Source: a virus
Strand: one strand, 5' to 3'
IMG/VR virus record: IMGVR_UViG_3300030107_006392
Location: 1-57,247 of that record
Length of the DNA: 57,247 bases
The notes below the pieces were generated by a model. That model did no database searches, was not told where the DNA came from, and saw only the letters and a program-made list of their open reading frames with translations. Below are positions 16,333 through 55,777 of the stretch, piece by piece; position 1 is the stretch's first letter, and each line of letters starts with the position of its first letter. The translations under genes were made by a program, and so were the position numbers.

Positions 16333-17239
16333 GCGCCATTTCCTTTGCTATTTGGTTTGCATATTGCTCAACAGTAATACCAAGTTTTTTGGCGAGATTA
16401 ACCTGATGATTGTTAAGCGTTACTTTGCGTGGGGTCTTAGCGTTTCGTGTCGCTGGAGCCACCACGGATTTGCGGGGAACTTCAACTTTCTCTAAAGCTC
16501 CATCCTCAAAACGGTCAGGAAAAACTTCCCTAACTCTCTGATCCACTCGTTCATAATAGTGTTCACTTCGTGGATCAACTCTTTCTTTAATAAGCTTGTC
16601 ATGAACCGCATACGCTACTGCGGTCATTTCTGTATCCTTGCCAAACCATTCATTTTGCCTAAGCCATTCAATAGCCCTAGGATCAGGCGGGGCAACATAC
16701 TGTTGTTGCTGTTGAGGTTGCGGTTGCGGTTGCGGATTTGCAACCTGCGATTGTTCTTTAGGAGGACGCACCTCCTCTACCCTTTTCTGAGAATACTGTG
16801 CATCATTAATCTGCTTTTGAGCAGCTACAATACGATCTGTATCTCCAGCATCATAAGCTTCTCTAAATTCTTTTTCTGCCATCTGAAGTTCCGTATTAGC
16901 TTTAGATTCCGTGGCATTAAACAGCGCTTGATTTCCTTGCTGTATAAGATTTTTTAAATCACGGTTTTCCGCTAACATTCTTTGAGCATGAGCCAGCGCT
17001 TCTTGATTTTCTTTTTGCGCCACCTCCTTCGCACGGCGTTGCTCGTGAAACTCGTACTTCAGTCTTTTGATACGCTTCTGTACCCGATCCGAGTACTGCC
17101 CTATCTCCTCTTCCGAGATATCAAAGTCTGCCGCGGCTTCCGCATCTTTCGGGGAAACTTTATCTTCTTCAGGCGTATCATCTACTACTTCAATTTCAAT
17201 ATCGCTTTCGGCTGCGACTGCCGTTTCTTTTTCAATCAT
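16322..17239 (-). CDS. scaffolding-like protein (305 aa)
   Basis: Acidic N-terminus, long predicted coiled coil (residues ~50-150: YSDRVQKRIKRLKYEFHEQR, AEKEFREAYDAGDTDRIVA), a Pro/Gln linker (~175-185, QPQPQPQQQQQ) and a basic C-terminal helical segment (KVTLNNHQVNLAKKLGI). This is the composition of T7/P22-type scaffolds, with a charged helical middle and a basic capsid-binding tail. It is placed between the co-chaperonin and the capsid gene. Function inferred from composition and order. Confidence 0.7.
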   Translation of the reverse strand: MIEKETAVAAESDIEIEVVDDTPEEDKVSPKDAEAAADFDISEEEIGQYSDRVQKRIKRLKYEFHEQRRAKEVAQKENQEALAHAQRMLAENRDLKNLIQQGNQALFNATESKANTELQMAEKEFREAYDAGDTDRIVAAQKQINDAQYSQKRVEEVRPPKEQSQVANPQPQPQPQQQQQYVAPPDPRAIEWLRQNEWFGKDTEMTAVAYAVHDKLIKERVDPRSEHYYERVDQRVREVFPDRFEDGALEKVEVPRKSVVAPATRNAKTPRKVTLNNHQVNLAKKLGITVEQYANQIAKEMAHGR

Positions 17240-17601
17240 TATGCCCTCGTATATCCGCGTGGATCATCTACCACTGCTTCAACTAAATCGTCATTAATAA
17301 GACGAAACTCTTTACCATGAATTTTAATACGTGTTCCTTGAAACGCCCTAAAGATAACGAAGTCACCTTTCTTGCACCAAGGTCCCGATGGAAACCGTTT
17401 CTTATCTGCATAAGCATCAGGTCCCATTGCTAACACCAATCCATAGACACTGGACACAGCCTCATTCTCTCTCGCCTGGTCGGTTTTTATAATACCGCCA
17501 GCAGTCTTTTCCTCCACTTCAGGAAGACCAATCAACAACCTGTACCCCTGTGGATCAGGAAGCTGAGTTGGTTCTTTCTTTAACTCAACCACTTCTGACA
17601 T
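17239..17601 (-). CDS. GroES-like co-chaperonin (Cpn10 family)
   Basis: 120 residues, slightly longer than bacterial GroES (~97). Residues ~19-26 give the first strand (YRLLIGLP), then EEKTAGGII forms the mobile loop with the hydrophobic GGII tripeptide that contacts GroEL. GLVLAMGPDAY, CKKGDFVIFRAFQGTRIK and DDLVEAVV follow the Cpn10 barrel order. No GroEL is encoded, so it would work with the host GroEL. It sits between the portal-side genes and the scaffold, which points to capsid or portal folding, as in other phages with gp31-type substitutes (known). The family call is firm; the client is inferred. Confidence 0.85.
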   Translation of the reverse strand: MSEVVELKKEPTQLPDPQGYRLLIGLPEVEEKTAGGIIKTDQARENEAVSSVYGLVLAMGPDAYADKKRFPSGPWCKKGDFVIFRAFQGTRIKIHGKEFRLINDDLVEAVVDDPRGYTRA

Positions 17602-44426: not shown

Positions 44427-47400
44427 TTATTGAAATGCCTCTTGACGCAGTTCAGGAATAGCTTCTACTGCCAGCAACTCTTCGGCTGTTATCTCTTTAA
44501 TTAAATCTCTCTTTGCTTCAGCGCTGAGATTTGATCGCAGTATATCTAAACGCTCTTTCCTAAGCTCCGAAAGAACTCCAGCAATAGCTTCTACTTCTAT
44601 CTCCAAATCTAAAAGTTCAAGGCGCTTTTCTTCAAACTTTTCTGCCTCACTTACAGTTAGCTCCCCCTGTTCCAAATCTTTTAAGGTATTCACCGCCTGC
44701 CCTACGGCCTCTCTAAGATCATAGAACTGTGTTACTAATCCACGAGCATCTGGTCTCGCAAAGAATCTTTTAATAAACGGATACTCACTGAGTTGCTTGC
44801 TAGGACGTTCTCCCAGTTCTTCAGAAGTCTGCCTCATCACCTGATCTATTGTATCAAACAACACTGTCCCTAAAGTCCCGCTATATCCCTTTATCATATG
44901 GTCTATCTTTACAGGAGAAGCATTGAGTGCCTGCCCAAGTTCTATCGCCAGCGCAGATGTACGACTGTTTGCCCTGTATCCTGGCTCTAACCGTTCCAAA
45001 TAAGACCCTTCAATTTCACGGCCTGTCCAAAAACTAAAGTTTGTAATAGCCTCACCGATAGGAAGCACTGCTTGTGGGATAGGATTAAACTCAAAAGTAT
45101 TTGCTAAACCTCTCGTCAAAGCAGTTACAGTATCTCTAGGCACATCTTTTCCAAACATAAGTGCCATTGTTCTTTCAGGTAAAGTCTTAAATAAAAACCC
45201 TACTTCAAACGGGATCGGTATTCTGAGGGGCGGTCCCTCATAACCAGGTATGAACTTGGATGGGATGATCCAATAGTTGTCTTTTATTTCTGGGTTCTGG
45301 TTGATATATTCTTCGTCATCATGAACTAGCGCCCAGTATGCTGCGCTGCTCATCCCCACTAACAATGCCCGTGTAATAAAGCGTCTTTTAACAATATCAG
45401 ATTCTACTCGTGGGGTGAAACCTTTAGCTCCCATTGAGGCTCGATAAAGAACATCAAGCCCCTGTAAACGTGCATTTAAAAACGGAACCATCACTGCTAA
45501 ATTCTGAATAACTGCGGATGATCCCCGTGCTGAAAAGTTAATAACTTCCTGAGCTTCGTAAATTGCCTGCACCTCATCGCCAGTTTCTTGCAATACCTTT
45601 TCATATACAGCAATTCGTGTGGCTGCATCCGATGCCCGTGATGCGGTGCCTGATGCATCCCATATAGCTTTAAGGGGATTGCGTATTATCCTTCCCATTT
45701 TGGATGGATACTTATATTTCAACAATTCTTTTTCAATAAAGTCTGTCATCTTGGAAGGATCACCACCAAAATCAAAGCCTGTCATTAATCCTGCGGAAGC
45801 TATTGCATCAGCCGATGTACTGCCTTTAAGCGCCTTTACAAAACCACTGGTTGTTCCAGCTAATGCCCCTGTATTACGACCACTCGTTGCCCAAGCAGAA
45901 AGAGAATCACGCAACATATTGGCTACCATGAAGTCAGGTGAACGAGTAACCATTTCTCTTAAAAACCTAGCAGGCATTCCTAAAAAATTAACAAAAGGAT
46001 TTATCTGTTGATTAGAGTTATAGTTTGCTAATGCAGAATACATAGCCTGATCACTGATATGCAGTGTCATTTCCTTGCCTTTAACTCTAAACGTAATAGA
46101 ATTAGTAGAACCCTTCTTAACTTTAACAGTTTGCGTGGGGTCTAGAATAGCCATGTTCCGCATAGCACGTTGCACACCTACGTTAAGCATTCCAGTCTGA
46201 ACAGCGCTTAATGCATTCTCAGTTACAGTATCAAGGAACCCCCCAATAGGCATCCCTTTCCTAGAAACTCTGGTACTTACCCCAGTTTCATCTGTATATT
46301 TTTTAGCATAAGCTTCCGCTATAGTTTTTTCTTTCGCATCAAATGTAGTAGGGAGCATGGTCTCATTGCCATCAGCATCCGTAGCAATAACCGCATAAAC
46401 CGTTCCCGTTCCTTTTAGTACAGGAGGAACATGGGTAGTAATGCCAGCGAACATATTGCCTTCACCAGAAATTTCCCCTAGATTTTCTTCCTTCTGATAT
46501 TTGCTGTCTAGCTGTCTATAGAATGGAATATAATCCCCTGTTTCCTTCCATTTCTCTGCTTGGGTTGCATCAAGCACCCCAGTATCTACAAGGAAATCTA
46601 CAAAATAACTATTCCATACCTGATAGTCTTGAAAGATATCAGAGAAATCTTTATTAAACTTAATATTTTTGTCCCCTATAAGCGTGTTAACCTGAGCAAC
46701 ATCAACGCCCATGATTTGAGCTATCTCAGATACGCTGTTTCCCAATGCTAAATACTGTGCAATCTGCTCCTGAGTAAGAAGTTTCTCTCTTCCTTCTTGT
46801 ATTAATCGTGCAGCCCTTCGGGCAATAGAATAAAAATGAAATGCTTTAAAACGATTGCCGTTTCGCAAAGGTTCAATAATTGGAATAAGTCCTGTATCAG
46901 TTCCAGCGATACGACTACGCTCTCTTGTGCCATCAAAATTAATCTGCTCTGCATCTTCAGGAATTGCTTCTACTTTTGTACCGCCACCTCGATAAACAGG
47001 AACCCCTTTTGATAGGGCATACGCCGTAATAGCTGTGCCTCTACGAGCCATGCGTAACGCAGCATGAGCAGAACCACTCGCACTCAAGGCACCAGCATAT
47101 CTTGCATCCTTCTCGGATATTGCTACATCCCCCCGTCTGGCAGGGTCCCAATTATCAATAACATTCTGACGAAACCATTTTCCAAACTCACCAAAACTAT
47201 CCAGCTTTGTCCCGCCTAACATGCCCAAGCTTCCCAGAAACTTTTGGCCTAATGTTTCATGGCGATTTTCTTCCACAGTCCCTGAAGGAAACTCCACCCC
47301 CATCTCCATCGGAGCGCTCTTAATAGAATAATTTTGAGATATAGGACGTGCCTGTTTTGATGGAAGGGTTAACGTATTAGGTCCAACTTTTTTGGGCATG

Positions 47401-50400
47401 TTAATTTCAATGGCTGTTCTTTTTGCCAAAGGGGATACTCCATTCAGATTATAAGTACCGTTTCTGGCAAGACGTGAAGCAGTGTCTACATACTCTCTTT
47501 CAAAATTAGCAGGACGTGATCTTCTTTCAGAGTATGTAGGTCCTTCAGGAAAAATAGTTGCCAGTGCAAAATAAGGTCTTCTCTGTCCTTCTAAAATTCC
47601 TTCGGGCAAGAACTGAAACCCTGCTTTAATTATCTTTTCAGACTCAGGATCTTTCCATGAAATCTCGTAAGCTCCGTACTCTCCTCTTTCATTAGCTTCT
47701 GTACGAAATTCCCCCTTACGAACAGGGTCTGCATACGCATCCATCATTGAACCTAAAGCTTGCCCTACATTTTCATAAGGAGTGTACGCTAAGAAGTCAG
47801 GTTCATGTTCTTGAGCATGTTCATACCCTACTGTTCTCCTGTCTCCTCTAGGCATAATGACAGGTATAGACTGGCCTTTATATTGTTTAGGAACGCCAGT
47901 TGATGTAATTCTTCCCCATACACGGGACACCTCTCCATCAGGAAGTCTGCGCCCAACTAATGCTTGTTGTCGTGGGGATAAGTTTCTAAAGTTTCGAGCC
48001 TGTTTGTCTGGTGTTAAATCTTCAACAACTTGTTTATCAAGACGAGATATTTTTCCATCAAGTATTTTAACTCTTCTTGTAGCAGTAGGTTCATATTCAG
48101 TACCTAAGATATCCCAAAACTTTTTTGCTTTCTTTTGAATGTCATATATACGCAAGTCATTATCTGCATTAGCAAATAAATTTTCTACTATTTTTCGACC
48201 TGCCCCTTGTCCACGTTTATTTTTTGCTACTTCTATATTAACCAGTCCTTCAATTTCGTCAGTAGCATTTCCTGTTTCTTCGTCAACAACTAAATTAATT
48301 TCTACTCTTCCAAGCCTAGCTTCTTTTAAAGTTTCTTTAGATGGGCGACCTCCATCAGGAGGAAGGTTATTTTCTATAAACTTTTTATCATAAACCTCAA
48401 ACCCTAATCTAGCCACACCAGGTGCAGAACTACCTGCTCTTATGCCAGCAGTGAAGATTAAATTTTCATTTTCTAGTTGATCAAAAAAACCTGACTTTAA
48501 TTCTAAACGTGGGGCGATAGGAGATTGATTGATAGGTCTAGCTTGTTTATCTCCAGCATCAACTTCTGTGGGCTGTTGAGTTTCAAGAACTTCATCAACA
48601 GGATTGAACTGTTGGTCTACTTCTGGTTCAGTTCTATATCGACTGTTGTATCTATCGTTTCTTGTCCATCCATATCGTTCAGCAATTTCTTGCTCTGCTG
48701 CTTCAATCCTGTCTGCATATTTGGTGACGATAGAACGAACCCTGTCTTGAAGATCGGGTCGTCCTCCAAAGGTTCCTTCAAGGTAAATTTCGCCATTAGG
48801 ATTTTCCTTCCAACCTCCAAAGTTGCCTACATAAACATTTTGGGATGCTGCTTTATTAACAACCATCCCTTCAGGGTTAGGTATATCAGATATCTCGAAA
48901 CTGTTCAATGCATTAATAACTTTGTTCTGAAACTGGCGATTGTCTGTTTTTTCTATGCCATCCTTAGTTTGATAGGTATCACCCATCTCCATAAAGTTAA
49001 TAATATTTGCTCCATTTTCTGTAGATACAGGAGAAAAATCTGTACTATCAAATTCTTGTTGCAATATAGAATCTAAATTAGTTATCTCTTCATTAGTAAA
49101 AGGTCTTCCTATATTTACAGCTACCGCATTCTTGTCTCTTAATGGAACACTTTTGTTAAAAAATAAACGATGTGCTCCAACACCATCTTGTTTTAATAAA
49201 ATACCCCTAGCTGTCATGTACATCTTAACTAAATCAAGAGTAGCCTCATCAACTTCACCAGGCTGTCCCTTATACTTCATAGGCATCAATGCATACGTTT
49301 GAGTTCCTGGACTTACTACTCCTTCATAAACACCTGGTGCATCAAAACTTCTTGGTGAAAGCAACCCAACTTCTTGCGCCAACAAATCTCTACCATTATC
49401 ATCAGTAAGAGCCTTGGACATGGTGAAGTGATAGTCTGCCTGTTCATTCATAGGAGCATTAAATATTTCAGGAAAGTGACCACTTTCTTGAGAAGGTTTA
49501 GTCTCCCAAGATATTTGACCAAGGTTTTTTTCTAGTGCATCTTGGTAGTCAAAAGTCATTTCTGACACAGGCTTGCCATCTCTACTAGCTTTTTGAACTA
49601 CCCACATAGCCGCTTGAACTTGGTAAGGAGTCCATCCTAATTGATCTGCTATACGAGTAACTTCATTTTCAACAAAGTCATATTGTGCAGGGGTAGGAGT
49701 TCCCCCCTCAGATGGAAAACCAAAAACCCTCATCATGTGCATATCAACAGTAACACCCTGTGATCGTGACGGATCAATACTTGCCATGATATTATTATAA
49801 AAGGTATTAGTTTTACGTCCAGGCCAGTCAATTCCATCAAATAATTTTTCTAACCTTGGAACCATAGCTGAAGGAAACTTGCCAGTTAGTATAGGTCTGC
49901 CAGCTTTCCATTGATTATAAGCTTGAATAGCAAATTGAAAGTTTGCTAACACTGGAGTAGAGCCAGCACTAGTAATAGCAATGGCTTGGGCTATTTTATC
50001 TGCCTCTTCTTTATTTCCATCTACTAAATCTAATATTGAATTGCCTGATCGTTCATACCAAAACCTGCCAGGCTCCCCTTCTTCAGCAATTTTCAACATA
50101 TTTTTACGCAATGTTCTTAACTTCTGAGGGCTATCTATTCCTTTAGGAGCACCAACATATTGACCTGTTGTTCCAATTCTTCTGGCTTGTTTATCGCCTT
50201 CACTTGATTGGAAGAAAGGTCTGTAGAACTTGACACTGGACTCACCGCCTCTAAGCCGTGGAGGAACAGCACTCAACCCATCACTTCTACCTACACTATC
50301 CACAAAGTTATTAAGATTATCAATGTCTGTAGAGTCTATAGAAAGTCTATCATTAGCAATTTTTAAAGATGGAACTTGTTCTAAGAGTTCTTCACGATTA

Positions 50401-52403
50401 GCTCTGTTCTCCATTAAGCTATCAAAAAATTCTACTTCTTTCTTAGTTAAAGCAACACTTCCAGCTTCTTCAAATGTTCGTGCTTGTCTATCAGGGGCAG
50501 CTTCTACTACTACATCTTCATCTACCAACAAATCTTCGGGTTTAAAATCTTCTAACGCTACTTCAGGAGTAATTCGCCCCGTAAAATCAGGGGCAAACTC
50601 CACCCTTTCAAATATTTGCTTGGCTTTAAAAATGTCAGCCTCTGCCAAGCCTCCCTTGACAGACCTGAAGAAATTAAGAATACGTTGCCATATTGACAGG
50701 GGTCGCCCCTTGAGAGGTGCCTGACCACTCACATGTCCCCTGAACATTTCAGCCGCCGCTTCTTCTATCTGTGCAGTCTCATCAAGATCTCTATAAGTTT
50801 TTCTTATAACCTCCATTACGGTCTTATCAGGATCAGACCAATGCTTGGCAGTTGATGCCGCCTTAGCAAGGAAGTTCATGTCCTTGTCGTTAAGAACTCC
50901 AAGGTCTACCCATGAATGGACAGTCTCGTGATCGGTAAGACCAGCAAGATATTGCGCCATAAGCTTAGGTTTTTTAAGAGTTTCTTCGGGAAGGGCATCG
51001 AGACTAAGCATGATAGCCGCTTTAGCCGATTGATTCTGGGGAGTGAACTGTGCTTCTGATGGAGCAACCTGCACTTCGCCTGCAATTTCAGGGCGGTTAA
51101 GGCTTTCGGTTATGATTAAAGCAACCTTTTTTGAAATGCCACGAACCTGTAACCTCTTGGTTAGATTGGCTCTCATTTTTTCTAAAACTTCAGGGGGGTA
51201 TGTTTGCTTAGGCGAGACATTGGGTGTTGCATTTTTAATTTTCTGCAAGGTGGATGTACTATCTTCTACATCCAAATCCCCAATCTCACCTTGTTCACTC
51301 ACATATAAAGTGTCAGGAGTACTGACTATTTCTTCAGACGCTATCAATTGTTGAGGAGGCTGAGGTGTTACCTCTTCTACTTCAGGTAATTCATCGGGTA
51401 AACCTTCGGTAACATCGGGGAGTATCTGCGATGTGGGTTGGTCAGTAGGTCGAGCCAATGGAGAAGTAACAGTACCAACAGTACCACCAGTAAGACCACC
51501 AACAATACCAGCATTAACAACATTACGAAGACGTTGGTTAAGCTCAATGTCATTTCCTGCCACACCCGCAAGCTCAGTTCCTTCACCTGTTAACTCCTGT
51601 ATAATTTGTTGAGCTAATTCTGTAGCACCTTCTGTTGTAAATCCTCTCGTACCTAACTGTAAAAATCTTTTAGTAATGGATCGGGAAATTTCCTGTTTAG
51701 TTTTGTTACGGAATGGAGCGGATAAAGCACTCAATCCCACCATGTCCAAAGCAGCCATAATAATGCCAGGACCTACTGCAACCTTGGAAGCTAAATCAGC
51801 TTCCACCTTTTCCTGCTCTAGCAAATAATCATAAGTATCACCGTAATTAAGAGCAAAAGAACCTAACCCAGCACCTGCTCTTGCTCCTACAGCCATACCT
51901 CCTGGCCCCAAAGGTGCGCCTACAATAGCACCAGGAATTGCAGTAGCTACAGGTACAGCAAGAGAAGCAAGACCTTGACCTAATCCAGAACCAAAAGCAT
52001 CACCAATACGATCAAGATCACCAGACATTATAGCTTCCAAAGCATCTGGCTCACGAGGAACAAATTCATCAGGAGAGTCTTTGTATTCCTGTGCTGTTTC
52101 AGCACCCCAATCCCTCATAGAATCACTGCCAAACGCACGACCAAGACCTTCAATAGCCCTTGCGCCTAGTTTGGGATTGCCTTCGGTAAGGGTAGATAGA
52201 AAGCTGCCTTTTAGCTGAGAGAAAAACCCTTCTTCAGAAGGTTGCTCTGGCGGTGCATCTATAACTTGGTCACTGGAAGTCTGACCCGCAAGTAATTGCT
52301 GATGGATGTTATTAACTGTTTGTTGTTGCTCATCAGGAGAAAGCTGTAGAAAAGAATCATCAACATTAATTCCTGAAAATTCCCCTATCTGTAATATAGG
52401 CAT
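44427..52403 (-). CDS. giant polyvalent virion protein (2,658 aa; metallopeptidase, GNAT and LPD38-like modules)
   Basis: The longest gene. N-terminal Gly/Ala membrane-like helices (~130-215), then a zinc-peptidase-like domain with HETVH (~491-495) and EEAAAEMF (~546). Modules follow, separated by DRQARTF (~635), DKQARRI (~735), DKQARPI (~1283), DKQARNF (~1464) and SKQARPI (~1678). Around 1400 is a GNAT-like RGQGAGRKIVENLF. The last ~980 residues include QINPFVNFLGMPARFLREM, TRSPDFMVANMLRDSLSAW and PLRIPIPFEVGFLFKTLPER, which I associate with LPD38 of polyvalent proteins. Placed after the SleB-type protein, it is probably injected with the DNA. Domain names are from memory; uninterrupted frame. 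Confidence 0.8.
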   Translation of the reverse strand: MPILQIGEFSGINVDDSFLQLSPDEQQQTVNNIHQQLLAGQTSSDQVIDAPPEQPSEEGFFSQLKGSFLSTLTEGNPKLGARAIEGLGRAFGSDSMRDWGAETAQEYKDSPDEFVPREPDALEAIMSGDLDRIGDAFGSGLGQGLASLAVPVATAIPGAIVGAPLGPGGMAVGARAGAGLGSFALNYGDTYDYLLEQEKVEADLASKVAVGPGIIMAALDMVGLSALSAPFRNKTKQEISRSITKRFLQLGTRGFTTEGATELAQQIIQELTGEGTELAGVAGNDIELNQRLRNVVNAGIVGGLTGGTVGTVTSPLARPTDQPTSQILPDVTEGLPDELPEVEEVTPQPPQQLIASEEIVSTPDTLYVSEQGEIGDLDVEDSTSTLQKIKNATPNVSPKQTYPPEVLEKMRANLTKRLQVRGISKKVALIITESLNRPEIAGEVQVAPSEAQFTPQNQSAKAAIMLSLDALPEETLKKPKLMAQYLAGLTDHETVHSWVDLGVLNDKDMNFLAKAASTAKHWSDPDKTVMEVIRKTYRDLDETAQIEEAAAEMFRGHVSGQAPLKGRPLSIWQRILNFFRSVKGGLAEADIFKAKQIFERVEFAPDFTGRITPEVALEDFKPEDLLVDEDVVVEAAPDRQARTFEEAGSVALTKKEVEFFDSLMENRANREELLEQVPSLKIANDRLSIDSTDIDNLNNFVDSVGRSDGLSAVPPRLRGGESSVKFYRPFFQSSEGDKQARRIGTTGQYVGAPKGIDSPQKLRTLRKNMLKIAEEGEPGRFWYERSGNSILDLVDGNKEEADKIAQAIAITSAGSTPVLANFQFAIQAYNQWKAGRPILTGKFPSAMVPRLEKLFDGIDWPGRKTNTFYNNIMASIDPSRSQGVTVDMHMMRVFGFPSEGGTPTPAQYDFVENEVTRIADQLGWTPYQVQAAMWVVQKASRDGKPVSEMTFDYQDALEKNLGQISWETKPSQESGHFPEIFNAPMNEQADYHFTMSKALTDDNGRDLLAQEVGLLSPRSFDAPGVYEGVVSPGTQTYALMPMKYKGQPGEVDEATLDLVKMYMTARGILLKQDGVGAHRLFFNKSVPLRDKNAVAVNIGRPFTNEEITNLDSILQQEFDSTDFSPVSTENGANIINFMEMGDTYQTKDGIEKTDNRQFQNKVINALNSFEISDIPNPEGMVVNKAASQNVYVGNFGGWKENPNGEIYLEGTFGGRPDLQDRVRSIVTKYADRIEAAEQEIAERYGWTRNDRYNSRYRTEPEVDQQFNPVDEVLETQQPTEVDAGDKQARPINQSPIAPRLELKSGFFDQLENENLIFTAGIRAGSSAPGVARLGFEVYDKKFIENNLPPDGGRPSKETLKEARLGRVEINLVVDEETGNATDEIEGLVNIEVAKNKRGQGAGRKIVENLFANADNDLRIYDIQKKAKKFWDILGTEYEPTATRRVKILDGKISRLDKQVVEDLTPDKQARNFRNLSPRQQALVGRRLPDGEVSRVWGRITSTGVPKQYKGQSIPVIMPRGDRRTVGYEHAQEHEPDFLAYTPYENVGQALGSMMDAYADPVRKGEFRTEANERGEYGAYEISWKDPESEKIIKAGFQFLPEGILEGQRRPYFALATIFPEGPTYSERRSRPANFEREYVDTASRLARNGTYNLNGVSPLAKRTAIEINMPKKVGPNTLTLPSKQARPISQNYSIKSAPMEMGVEFPSGTVEENRHETLGQKFLGSLGMLGGTKLDSFGEFGKWFRQNVIDNWDPARRGDVAISEKDARYAGALSASGSAHAALRMARRGTAITAYALSKGVPVYRGGGTKVEAIPEDAEQINFDGTRERSRIAGTDTGLIPIIEPLRNGNRFKAFHFYSIARRAARLIQEGREKLLTQEQIAQYLALGNSVSEIAQIMGVDVAQVNTLIGDKNIKFNKDFSDIFQDYQVWNSYFVDFLVDTGVLDATQAEKWKETGDYIPFYRQLDSKYQKEENLGEISGEGNMFAGITTHVPPVLKGTGTVYAVIATDADGNETMLPTTFDAKEKTIAEAYAKKYTDETGVSTRVSRKGMPIGGFLDTVTENALSAVQTGMLNVGVQRAMRNMAILDPTQTVKVKKGSTNSITFRVKGKEMTLHISDQAMYSALANYNSNQQINPFVNFLGMPARFLREMVTRSPDFMVANMLRDSLSAWATSGRNTGALAGTTSGFVKALKGSTSADAIASAGLMTGFDFGGDPSKMTDFIEKELLKYKYPSKMGRIIRNPLKAIWDASGTASRASDAATRIAVYEKVLQETGDEVQAIYEAQEVINFSARGSSAVIQNLAVMVPFLNARLQGLDVLYRASMGAKGFTPRVESDIVKRRFITRALLVGMSSAAYWALVHDDEEYINQNPEIKDNYWIIPSKFIPGYEGPPLRIPIPFEVGFLFKTLPERTMALMFGKDVPRDTVTALTRGLANTFEFNPIPQAVLPIGEAITNFSFWTGREIEGSYLERLEPGYRANSRTSALAIELGQALNASPVKIDHMIKGYSGTLGTVLFDTIDQVMRQTSEELGERPSKQLSEYPFIKRFFARPDARGLVTQFYDLREAVGQAVNTLKDLEQGELTVSEAEKFEEKRLELLDLEIEVEAIAGVLSELRKERLDILRSNLSAEAKRDLIKEITAEELLAVEAIPELRQEAFQ

Positions 52404-52416
52404 TATTTAATCGTGC

Positions 52417-54780
52417 TCATTTTTTAGTCACGCTCCACGATACAGGAGACACAATTGGCAAATTTCTACCGCCCATATAATTTTCCCGCAATATTTGTGA
52501 CGCTGCTATACGAGCATTCTGTGGATTCATTTTCCCGTAATCAAGATATGTTCCTTCTATTAACTTACGTCTAATTTCACGTTCCTGTTTTTTACCATCT
52601 CCTTTCATATAATTTTGATAAGCACTTTCTAAGCGCGATTTCTTTAATGTCTCGTCAGGCACAGTGGGAGGGGAATAAGTTGCTCTTATAGATTGTCTTA
52701 CACCAGGCTTAACACGTCCTGGCTTACCATCTTCCATAAAGAAATATTTTTCTGGATTTCTAGAGTTTCTATAATCTTCTAATATTCTATTTTCATACGC
52801 TTGATATTCACCTCCTCTTGCTAATTTTTCAGCAGCTATATCCGTAGCTCTTTTCTGATTAGCGAGAGTGGCAAGAGCTATTTGACGTTTAGCTAACGCG
52901 GCTTTGTCATCCGTAAATTGCTTAACTCCTGCCTGAGCACCAGGAATAGAACTCAGGAATGTTGCGCCAGGCTGACTGGCCTGTTGCATAATGCCAAGCC
53001 CTGCCGTTAACAAGCCCATAGCTTTAGCATCATCCTGTGACTTCGTTATATCCGCAAGCAACTGTGCATATTGACCATCGCCAGCACCAGTCGGTGAACC
53101 ATCAACAGGCTGTAAATAAGAAACTTTTTTATCAGCTTTATTATCTACATTACTTATCATTTCCTCGCCATATTTTCCCCCTTTAAAATTTTCATAAGCC
53201 TTTTGTTCTTTAAGCATATTAGTTCGGATTGGGTCTTCCAAAAATTCAGCAGTGGATCGATCGCCTAAAAAAGCATATGATTGATCGGGTGCAAGATTAG
53301 CCAAAGCGGAAAGCCCTTCCCTACCTTGCCCCGTATAAGCATCTGGAATACCCCCAAACGCTTGTTTTGTTGTTACTGATGGATGGGCTTTTTGTGCTTC
53401 ATACTTTTGTTGAGGAGTTTGCGCTGTAGCATGAACAGGTGCATTTTTTGCTTTTATCTCATTTATTATAGATTGAACAAACTGATTACCTGCGCTAGGG
53501 GTACTGATATTTTCTTGTCTAATATCCCTCGCTCTTCTTTCCTGATTTATCCTTGCTATATTCGCTTGAGCCTTAGCCAAAGCATCCGCTTTCCGTTGCT
53601 CTTTTGTATCTAAAGTAGGAGGAACAAGAAGCTCATAGTTATCAATAACTCCATCAGTTTTTCCTAAAAGTTCAGAAGGTTGGGGTGTAGTTCTTCCTAA
53701 CCGTTGCAACGCTGCTAAATTTAAATCTGGCAACTTACCCCTTGGAACAAATCCCGTTTCACTACCTGCATCATTACCAGAAGGAACTAAGCTCATAACA
53801 TACGATTTAACAAAATCCGAAGCATCACCCAAAAGATTACCTAATCCTGCCTTTTTATTTACATCTGCTACTGCTCGTGCTATTTGCTGGTTATCGTCTA
53901 CGGACGCTACTTGTCCAGCAGTCGAACCATAATAAGGAGAAAAATCCTCTGCAGCATTATTTATACTATACCGATCATAAAACACATGCTTCCCTATTCT
54001 TTTCCCAGCACTTTTATCTTGATCCATAATAGGAAATGGTGTTGCTAAATCAGGATTTTGAAACAAAACAGCATTACCCACTGGGTTTTCATTACCAAAG
54101 TCCATAAGCAATTCTTCTATTACATCTTCAGTCTCATCCGTTGCTTCCCCTAACTTAGAAAGATCGCCCTTTAAATCATTCAAAGGGGAAAACTGATATC
54201 CTTTTGCTGATGGTTGTTTCAGAACGCCTTCAAGAGTGTTAGGAAATTTTTTAGAAAGAATGCGATTAACAATAACAGACGCTACGGCTTTCTTTCCTTC
54301 TGCTGATTCACCCCCTGCTTCTGCTTCAACCATTTGTGCTAATAACTTCCTGTCAATATCACCCAGCATATTGATAAACTTATCAACGCTTTCCATGCCG
54401 CCCCCTGTCTGCATATAAACAGGACCGCCCGCTTCCATTCCCATAGAGGGCGGTGGAGCAGGAGGCATCGGCATTTGAGAAGGAGCCGAAGGAGGTATTT
54501 GCCCGGCGGACGGAGGCATTTGCATCCCATTTGATAGGGCTTGCATCATAGGAGGTGGCGCCATCATATCTTCAGGGGGCGCTATCATATCTTCTAATAC
54601 AGTTTTTTTATCTTGCTCTTTTAATTGACCAGTGTATTCATCTCTAACTTTTTTACGTCTTTCAATTTCAGTCATAACAAGATAGGTAGGAGCATTACCC
54701 GTAGGTTGTTGAACCTCCTGCATTAACTTATCATCAGGAATACCTTTTAAAATTTCCTGCATCTGTAAAATATTTGGCAT
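52417..54780 (-). CDS. virion protein with SleB-type cell-wall hydrolase domain (787 aa)
   Basis: The start at 54780 (MPNILQMQEILKG) follows the upstream stop; the open frame to 55134 overlaps another gene and is noise. Residues ~145-265 carry LLAQMVEAEAGGESAEGKKA, VASVIVNRI and YQFSPLNDL: a SleB/CwlJ (Hydrolase_2) domain with E152/E154 candidates. A Pro/Met-rich linker precedes (~66-118), and long helical disordered segments follow. It probably opens peptidoglycan during DNA ejection, like the transglycosylase of T7 gp16 (analogy). Confidence 0.8.
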   Translation of the reverse strand: MPNILQMQEILKGIPDDKLMQEVQQPTGNAPTYLVMTEIERRKKVRDEYTGQLKEQDKKTVLEDMIAPPEDMMAPPPMMQALSNGMQMPPSAGQIPPSAPSQMPMPPAPPPSMGMEAGGPVYMQTGGGMESVDKFINMLGDIDRKLLAQMVEAEAGGESAEGKKAVASVIVNRILSKKFPNTLEGVLKQPSAKGYQFSPLNDLKGDLSKLGEATDETEDVIEELLMDFGNENPVGNAVLFQNPDLATPFPIMDQDKSAGKRIGKHVFYDRYSINNAAEDFSPYYGSTAGQVASVDDNQQIARAVADVNKKAGLGNLLGDASDFVKSYVMSLVPSGNDAGSETGFVPRGKLPDLNLAALQRLGRTTPQPSELLGKTDGVIDNYELLVPPTLDTKEQRKADALAKAQANIARINQERRARDIRQENISTPSAGNQFVQSIINEIKAKNAPVHATAQTPQQKYEAQKAHPSVTTKQAFGGIPDAYTGQGREGLSALANLAPDQSYAFLGDRSTAEFLEDPIRTNMLKEQKAYENFKGGKYGEEMISNVDNKADKKVSYLQPVDGSPTGAGDGQYAQLLADITKSQDDAKAMGLLTAGLGIMQQASQPGATFLSSIPGAQAGVKQFTDDKAALAKRQIALATLANQKRATDIAAEKLARGGEYQAYENRILEDYRNSRNPEKYFFMEDGKPGRVKPGVRQSIRATYSPPTVPDETLKKSRLESAYQNYMKGDGKKQEREIRRKLIEGTYLDYGKMNPQNARIAASQILRENYMGGRNLPIVSPVSWSVTKK

Positions 54781-54784
54781 CGCA

Positions 54785-55777
54785 TTATCCTGTAAGCATT
54801 TTGTAAAGACCAAGACCACCAAGACCAGCCCCAGCCAATTGACCAGTAAACGATCCTGGTGCTTTGTATTGATAAACTTCTGATTGTGGGGTAACAGGAA
54901 CTCCCTGTAACAATCCAGCCAGATACTGAAGTTGTCTGCGCTCAAAGTCACGTTGGTTAAGAAAGTCCTGATAGGCAATATCAAGGTTTGCCTGATCCAT
55001 TTTTTGCTGGGCTGAACCAACACCTTGAAGCGCCCCTGCCTGAGCCATCTGTTGTTGGAAAAGCAATGGATCAATACCTGCTGAAGCAGCCGCTGCGTCC
55101 ATACCATACCTAGCCTCCGAAAGTCTTTCGGCACCAGTCAATTGAGCGGCTTTCATACGTGCTTCTCTGTCTCTGAGAAACTGGTCTCTAGCTTGTTGCT
55201 GGGCAGCTAAATAAGACTGTTGTCTCTGCTGAGACTCCACGTCTCCCATTCTCTGTTCAAACTTATCTCTTTCCAAAGCCTCTTCAACAGCCGCTCTACT
55301 TCCTCTACGAGTGCCTCTTGATACCCGTGCATCAGCACGTTTTCTTGCTTGTTGATCAAATATTTCTTGCCCTCTCATCCTTTGCCTATCCAGCACATCT
55401 TCTAAATAAGGGTCTTGATATTTTTTATAATCGGTACTTGGGTCATACTGATTTACTTGACCCGTGTAATCTTGCGCCTGAAAAGCCCTAGGTCCAATAT
55501 TCATAATGCCCGCATAATAATCTTGAGCATCCATCATTCCTTTGGGGGCTTGTGTTGCAGAAGCTATTGACATATCAAAAGCAGATTGTTGTTCAGGAGT
55601 AAACTGAGCTATACGAGCGCCACCATATGGATTATAAGCTTGTTGAGATAAAGACTCCCCTCGATCCAACAACCTTTCATAATATGGTTGAGCATATTGA
55701 GGAAGACTAGTTTGCGTTACTGTACTTTGCGTAGGAGTTGGACTTGGACCTCCACCACTACCACTACCTTTTCCCAT
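54785..55777 (-). CDS. internal core / ejection protein, gp14-like (330 aa)
   Basis: GGAGAAG before the ATG at 55777. Gly/Pro start, then LPQYAQPYYERLLDRGESLS, a long Arg/Gln/Ala coiled-coil region (~140-230, RQRMRGQEIFDQQARKRADA) and a hydrophobic Gly-rich C-terminus (SFTGQLAGAGLGGLGLYKM) able to enter a membrane. The position after the GNAT protein mirrors the T7 gp13-gp14-gp15-gp16 order. Ejection-complex role is inferred. Confidence 0.7.
   Translation of the reverse strand: MGKGSGSGGGPSPTPTQSTVTQTSLPQYAQPYYERLLDRGESLSQQAYNPYGGARIAQFTPEQQSAFDMSIASATQAPKGMMDAQDYYAGIMNIGPRAFQAQDYTGQVNQYDPSTDYKKYQDPYLEDVLDRQRMRGQEIFDQQARKRADARVSRGTRRGSRAAVEEALERDKFEQRMGDVESQQRQQSYLAAQQQARDQFLRDREARMKAAQLTGAERLSEARYGMDAAAASAGIDPLLFQQQMAQAGALQGVGSAQQKMDQANLDIAYQDFLNQRDFERRQLQYLAGLLQGVPVTPQSEVYQYKAPGSFTGQLAGAGLGGLGLYKMLTG

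Follow-up and report, generated by a model that had tools for sequence, protein, structure and literature searches.

The window, the whole stretch of DNA analysed here (57,247 bases, an IMG/VR virus record), carries terminase, portal, capsid and tail genes and probably comes from a marine phage. It contains a giant open reading frame (ORF) for a polyvalent protein of 2658 residues whose modules are bordered by a short peptide, [DS][KR]QAR. Among relatives of the protein this border peptide recurs in clade-specific dialects, is selected as a peptide and lies at the sites where modules are exchanged. We consider the chances about even that the border motifs of this modular polyvalent protein are protease sites at which a polyprotein is split, the likeliest enzyme being the zincin-like metallopeptidase embedded in it.

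A recurrent peptide at module borders

A preliminary description of this DNA had reported five [DS][KR]QAR motifs, each directly before a new domain. There are exactly five, 2-4 residues from where that description had put them (Table 1), and a new domain directly follows all of them, as judged from homology ends and starts, the DUF7178 module and the GNAT-like module. Shuffled versions of the protein contain a mean of 0.0125 such motifs and never more than one in 2000 shuffles. A motif scan found no [DSE][KR]QAR match in the other ORFs of the window. The Ser/Gly/Asn-rich start that had also been described after the motifs is weak, at 14 of 50 residues by manual count.

Alignments of the window protein with IMG/VR relatives end at residue 645 and resume at 1464 and 1681, which correspond to motifs 1, 4 and 5. 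A module homologous to residues 746-1273 is found in proteins of another clade and starts just after motif 2, while matches to module 3 in unrelated phages begin at 1283-1309, the border at motif 3. Module 4 has the motif at both flanks in all five close relatives, with K and R invariant while the linkers vary. Two relatives that are 89-96% identical elsewhere, L015 and L018, differ by one module present or absent exactly between two copies of FSR, another form of the motif. On a point raised in the preliminary description, whether the motif is absent from the borders of relatives, the relatives carry an equivalent motif there, in a clade-specific form.

Homology breakpoints were called in 54 non-redundant relatives without reference to any motif. 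In an unbiased search of tripeptides within 20 residues of these breakpoints, FSR came out first (31 of 73, in about 6% of the sequence) and SRR second, with RES, FSL, YSL and KEA also among the top; because the relatives are kin to each other and not fully independent, these numbers and those of the shift test overstate independence. Once the motif class was fixed, 81 of 197 module-region breakpoints lay within 20 residues of a copy, compared with a mean of 25.4 (standard deviation 4.9, maximum 46) in 2000 within-protein shifts, the class counts being partly post hoc as the regular expressions were broadened once the unbiased search had been made. Proteins of the FSR dialect have 2.48 FSR per 1000 residues in the module region and 0.16 in the backbone, a 15-fold difference, and no FSR occurs in the 41,207 residues of other ORFs on the same contigs.

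The five copies in the window protein are encoded with different synonymous codons. Across same-peptide copies, 11 of 80 pairs have identical codons, and mean nucleotide identity is 74%, indicating that selection acts on the peptide. A DNA-level repeat as the origin of the motif is ruled out, since the codons of the copies differ.

Clade dialects of the border peptide

The border peptide reads D[KR]QAR in the window, DKEAR and EKFAR in L003 and L006, K[EQSAM][AS]R in L030 (4069 residues), xFSR in L049, L016, L055, L084, L088 and others, IRESR in L042, and K[FY]SL or RYSL in L033, L036 and L067. Every dialect contains a small residue, A or S, with R or L directly after it. At the last border before the conserved C-terminal core, a homologous position, the sequence is SKQAR-PIS, EKFAR-PIS, SFSR-ANAP, RYSR-ANTP or KYSL-PTIP, and the simplest view of different dialects at a homologous border is that they are variants of a single element. 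Within a protein, copies agree in dialect class at 0.756 compared with 0.336 when shuffled (16 cluster representatives, p = 5e-5). Modules common to several clades carry the dialect of the recipient protein. The tail of module B ends in DKEAR, EKSAR, MFSR, VFAR or KFSLR across clades, and an HEGRH module starts after DKSAR, VFSR or PLFSR. On both the zincin and the core trees, 9 dialect changes are needed versus 24 when shuffled; the dialect follows clades, not modules.

Three further observations concern these relatives. In the 4069-residue protein (L030:635-12841) the K[EQSAM][AS]R motif occurs about eight times, alongside an S-adenosylmethionine methyltransferase-like module. Module starts in L047, L057 and L059 have DDFVMSKR or DFEMSKV in the place of the border motif, perhaps a further dialect. 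The HEGRH module, about 200 residues long with HEGRH conserved, occurs in L005, L016, L078, L080, L089 and L090 and is exchanged among clades; possibly it represents a second metallo-enzyme.

Exchange at the border is also seen in cultured F116-like Pseudomonas phages. In F116 and USP_18 a pair of FSR motifs encloses an ART domain, which Pfam assigns to ART-PolyVal in F116, and H66 carries LPD3 at that position. Homology between H66 and USP_18 is lost at USP_18 residue 821 and regained at 1032, with FSR starting at 817 and again at 1032. In Dickeya phage JA29, a free-standing ART homologue ends where the fused F116 copy has FSR, and FSR is absent. The F116-like giant protein (H66_0060, F116p60) resembles that of the window in its zincin-like HExxH motifs, FSR borders and FSR-bounded exchange of ART-PolyVal and LPD3, but its C-terminal part is an NCBIfam tail-700 (PLxRFG) domain instead of the LPD38 core, and it has one or two border copies only. 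H66_0060, the cultured analogue, is listed as a structural protein with mass-spectrometric verification; no virion-processing data for F116-like phages were found in the open-licence literature. A comparison of L104 with L112 shows a single 11.4-kb ORF for the giant protein in H66 and two adjacent ORFs in the F116 record.

Proposed polyprotein processing and its alternatives

The peptidase-like HETVH domain that the preliminary description placed upstream of the motifs is indeed present. The HExxH and the following EE are invariant in 29 sequences of relatives, and in complete relatives the zincin metallopeptidase motif lies N-terminal to the first border motif. AlphaFold2 (AF2) models residues ~401-601 with high confidence (predicted local distance difference test score, pLDDT, ~90 in the core) and gives the stretch around motif 1 a pLDDT <50, with a small folded module after it; the linker holding motif 1 is probably disordered, going by this model. 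With 2658 residues, LPD38, DUF7178, a zincin, a GNAT-like module and HExxH with a downstream glutamate, the protein has the make-up of a polyvalent protein. As in a processed polyprotein, a repeated candidate cognate site stands at each domain border and the putative embedded protease retains its active-site residues. Processing, which the preliminary description had proposed, is the best explanation and gains from the border equivalents in relatives, while the link to HETVH is drawn from co-inheritance and position.

A conserved backbone (N-terminal region, zincin and LPD38 C-terminal core) carries a cassette of exchangeable modules, and a short linker peptide marks each module border. In the processing scheme a protease, most likely the embedded zincin, would recognise the border motif and cut there, leaving the zincin part, the single effectors and the core as separate products, either in the head while it is being assembled or once ejection has taken place. 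The small residue and the R or L after it, common to all dialects, fit a cut between the two, which would fall, for example, at KQA/R, FS/R or KYS/L. Most proteases do not cleave directly before P, and P directly follows R in motifs 3 and 5, so the bond between A and R appears the likelier one. Trypsin cuts after R, and tryptic mass spectrometry would therefore mislead on ends at QAR.

Several observations weigh against processing at these borders by the zincin. No cleavage product has been observed. The fold-based zincin assignment is weak, as the leading Foldseek matches include several zincins but none is significant (best E 0.026). The zincin and core trees are congruent, and the dialect is therefore not assignable to the zincin specifically. 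The zincin-bearing relatives L071, L075, L076 and L085 lack a repeated motif, and in the YSL clade only 15 of 62 breakpoints lie near its motif. DdrB of phage P1, a processed protein according to PMC5512222, has no repeated motif. By the same paper, the virion RNA polymerase of phage N4 has a zincin yet is packaged uncleaved, though this protein, too, was found to lack a repeated border motif.

A fairly unlikely alternative is docking or tethering: through the motif, a common partner, such as the portal, the ejection channel or a chaperone, would hold each module during packaging or passage, without cleavage. Binding motifs also look like short conserved linker peptides with clade dialects, but this motif stands at every border, not once per protein, it is absent from the free-standing module homologue, and the embedded peptidase would need another role. 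We think it unlikely that a different protease of the phage or its host, such as a head maturation protease, cuts at the motif. Since the dialect tracks the core clade as well, it could follow any phage-encoded factor; however, the structural ORFs scanned in the window yielded no separate protease, the capsid ORF matching combined protease/capsid profiles only in part, and a head protease should also cut the products of other ORFs, in which neither [DSE][KR]QAR (window) nor FSR (FSR-dialect contigs) occurs.

That modules are exchanged exactly at the motif would suit a neutral or structural linker acting as a shared joint for recombination. Same-peptide copies usually differ in codons, however, and positionally equivalent borders carry different dialects, so DNA homology is not what is kept, and we regard such a joint as quite improbable. 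Chance repetition of a peptide just five residues long has almost no probability, given the expectation of 0.0125 copies and the border equivalents in relatives; it is refuted by the shuffling and breakpoint tests.

The general idea of zincin processing is already known. Iyer et al. 2017 (PMC5512222) proposed autoproteolytic release by the zincin metallopeptidase for polyvalent proteins, which are, like the window protein, large and multidomain, with a zincin, LPD38 and swapped effector domains. No border motif is reported in the passages of that paper that we searched, whereas here a defined repeated peptide is found for each clade; our literature search, covering open-licence papers, found no earlier report of it. 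The paper already draws the analogy with the polyproteins of eukaryotic RNA viruses, in which a protease is likewise embedded and sequences resembling cut sites recur where domains meet. The window differs from these in coming from a DNA phage, in its metallopeptidase type and unrelated domains, and in that its products are predicted. The N4 virion RNA polymerase is likewise a giant virion protein with a zincin HExxH. The window protein showed no RNA polymerase family and no methylase or helicase family in Pfam, NCBIfam and PHROGs scans, which sets it apart from N4-like polymerases and DarB-like proteins, respectively.

No repeated motif was found in the LPD38-type isolates Pondi, Vibrio D274, BA3, phiARM81mr, HTVC034P and CF418P1, and HExxH is absent from all of them with the exception of BA3. 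Neither the crAss-like zincin protein ctcc615 nor Ruegeria 45A6 has a clear repeated border motif, and no processing data for crAss001 cargo proteins were found in the open-licence literature. Bacterial genomes gave two loci only.

Layout of the giant ORF and wider meaning

Table 1. Features of the giant ORF in the window
Feature	Window position	Strand	Basis
Giant polyvalent protein ORF, 2658 residues	44427..52403	-	Pfam LPD38 and DUF7178 matches
N-terminal part, residues 1-400, Gly/Ala-rich hydrophobic stretch ~130-315	51204..52403	-	Sequence; weak DarB-like match 236-336
Zincin-like metallopeptidase, residues ~401-601, HETVH 492-496	50601..51203	-	Conserved residues, AF2, weak Foldseek
Border motif 1, DRQAR, residues 638-642	50478..50492	-	Motif scan; linker with pLDDT <50
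Module 1, residues 643-736, small mostly helical domain	50196..50477	-	Model residues 283-341, pLDDT ~80
Border motif 2, DKQAR, residues 737-741	50181..50195	-	Motif scan
Module 2, residues 742-1284, DUF7178 (777-938) and uncharacterised part	48552..50180	-	Pfam, homology
Border motif 3, DKQAR, residues 1285-1289	48537..48551	-	Motif scan
Module 3, residues 1290-1465, probable GNAT acetyltransferase (KRGQGAG loop)	48009..48536	-	Matches start here; loop by eye
Border motif 4, DKQAR, residues 1466-1470	47994..48008	-	K and R invariant in five relatives
Module 4, residues 1471-1681, uncharacterised domain	47361..47993	-	Motif at either side in five relatives
Border motif 5, SKQAR, residues 1682-1686	47346..47360	-	Motif scan
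Conserved C-terminal core, residues 1687-2658, with LPD38 (2363-2544)	44430..47345	-	Pfam, relatives

For module 3, Foldseek gave weak acetyltransferase matches that are not significant, from a low-confidence AF2 model (residues 1275-1725, pLDDT 47). The hydrophobic stretch in the N-terminal part is possibly membrane-active at ejection. The adjacent ORF of 905 residues (52417-55134, - strand) has a Hydrolase_2 (SleB-like) cell-wall hydrolase domain and is likely a virion lysin, and a GroES-like co-chaperonin gene (PHROG 3188; 17239-17601, - strand) lies beside the portal gene region.

More tentatively, many tailed phages might inject their early effectors as a true polyprotein. An embedded metallopeptidase would cut a cognate border peptide whose dialect coevolves with the protease and serves as a universal joint, so that modules gaining the local dialect become pluggable. 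The 2017 proposal that polyvalent proteins are processed came with no known cut sites, and a clade-versioned border peptide makes that proposal directly testable. It also provides a simple sequence rule to find and separate effector modules (ART, GNAT, methyltransferase and LPD domains), several of which went unrecognised by the domain libraries used. If true, DNA phages would offer an example of polyprotein logic.
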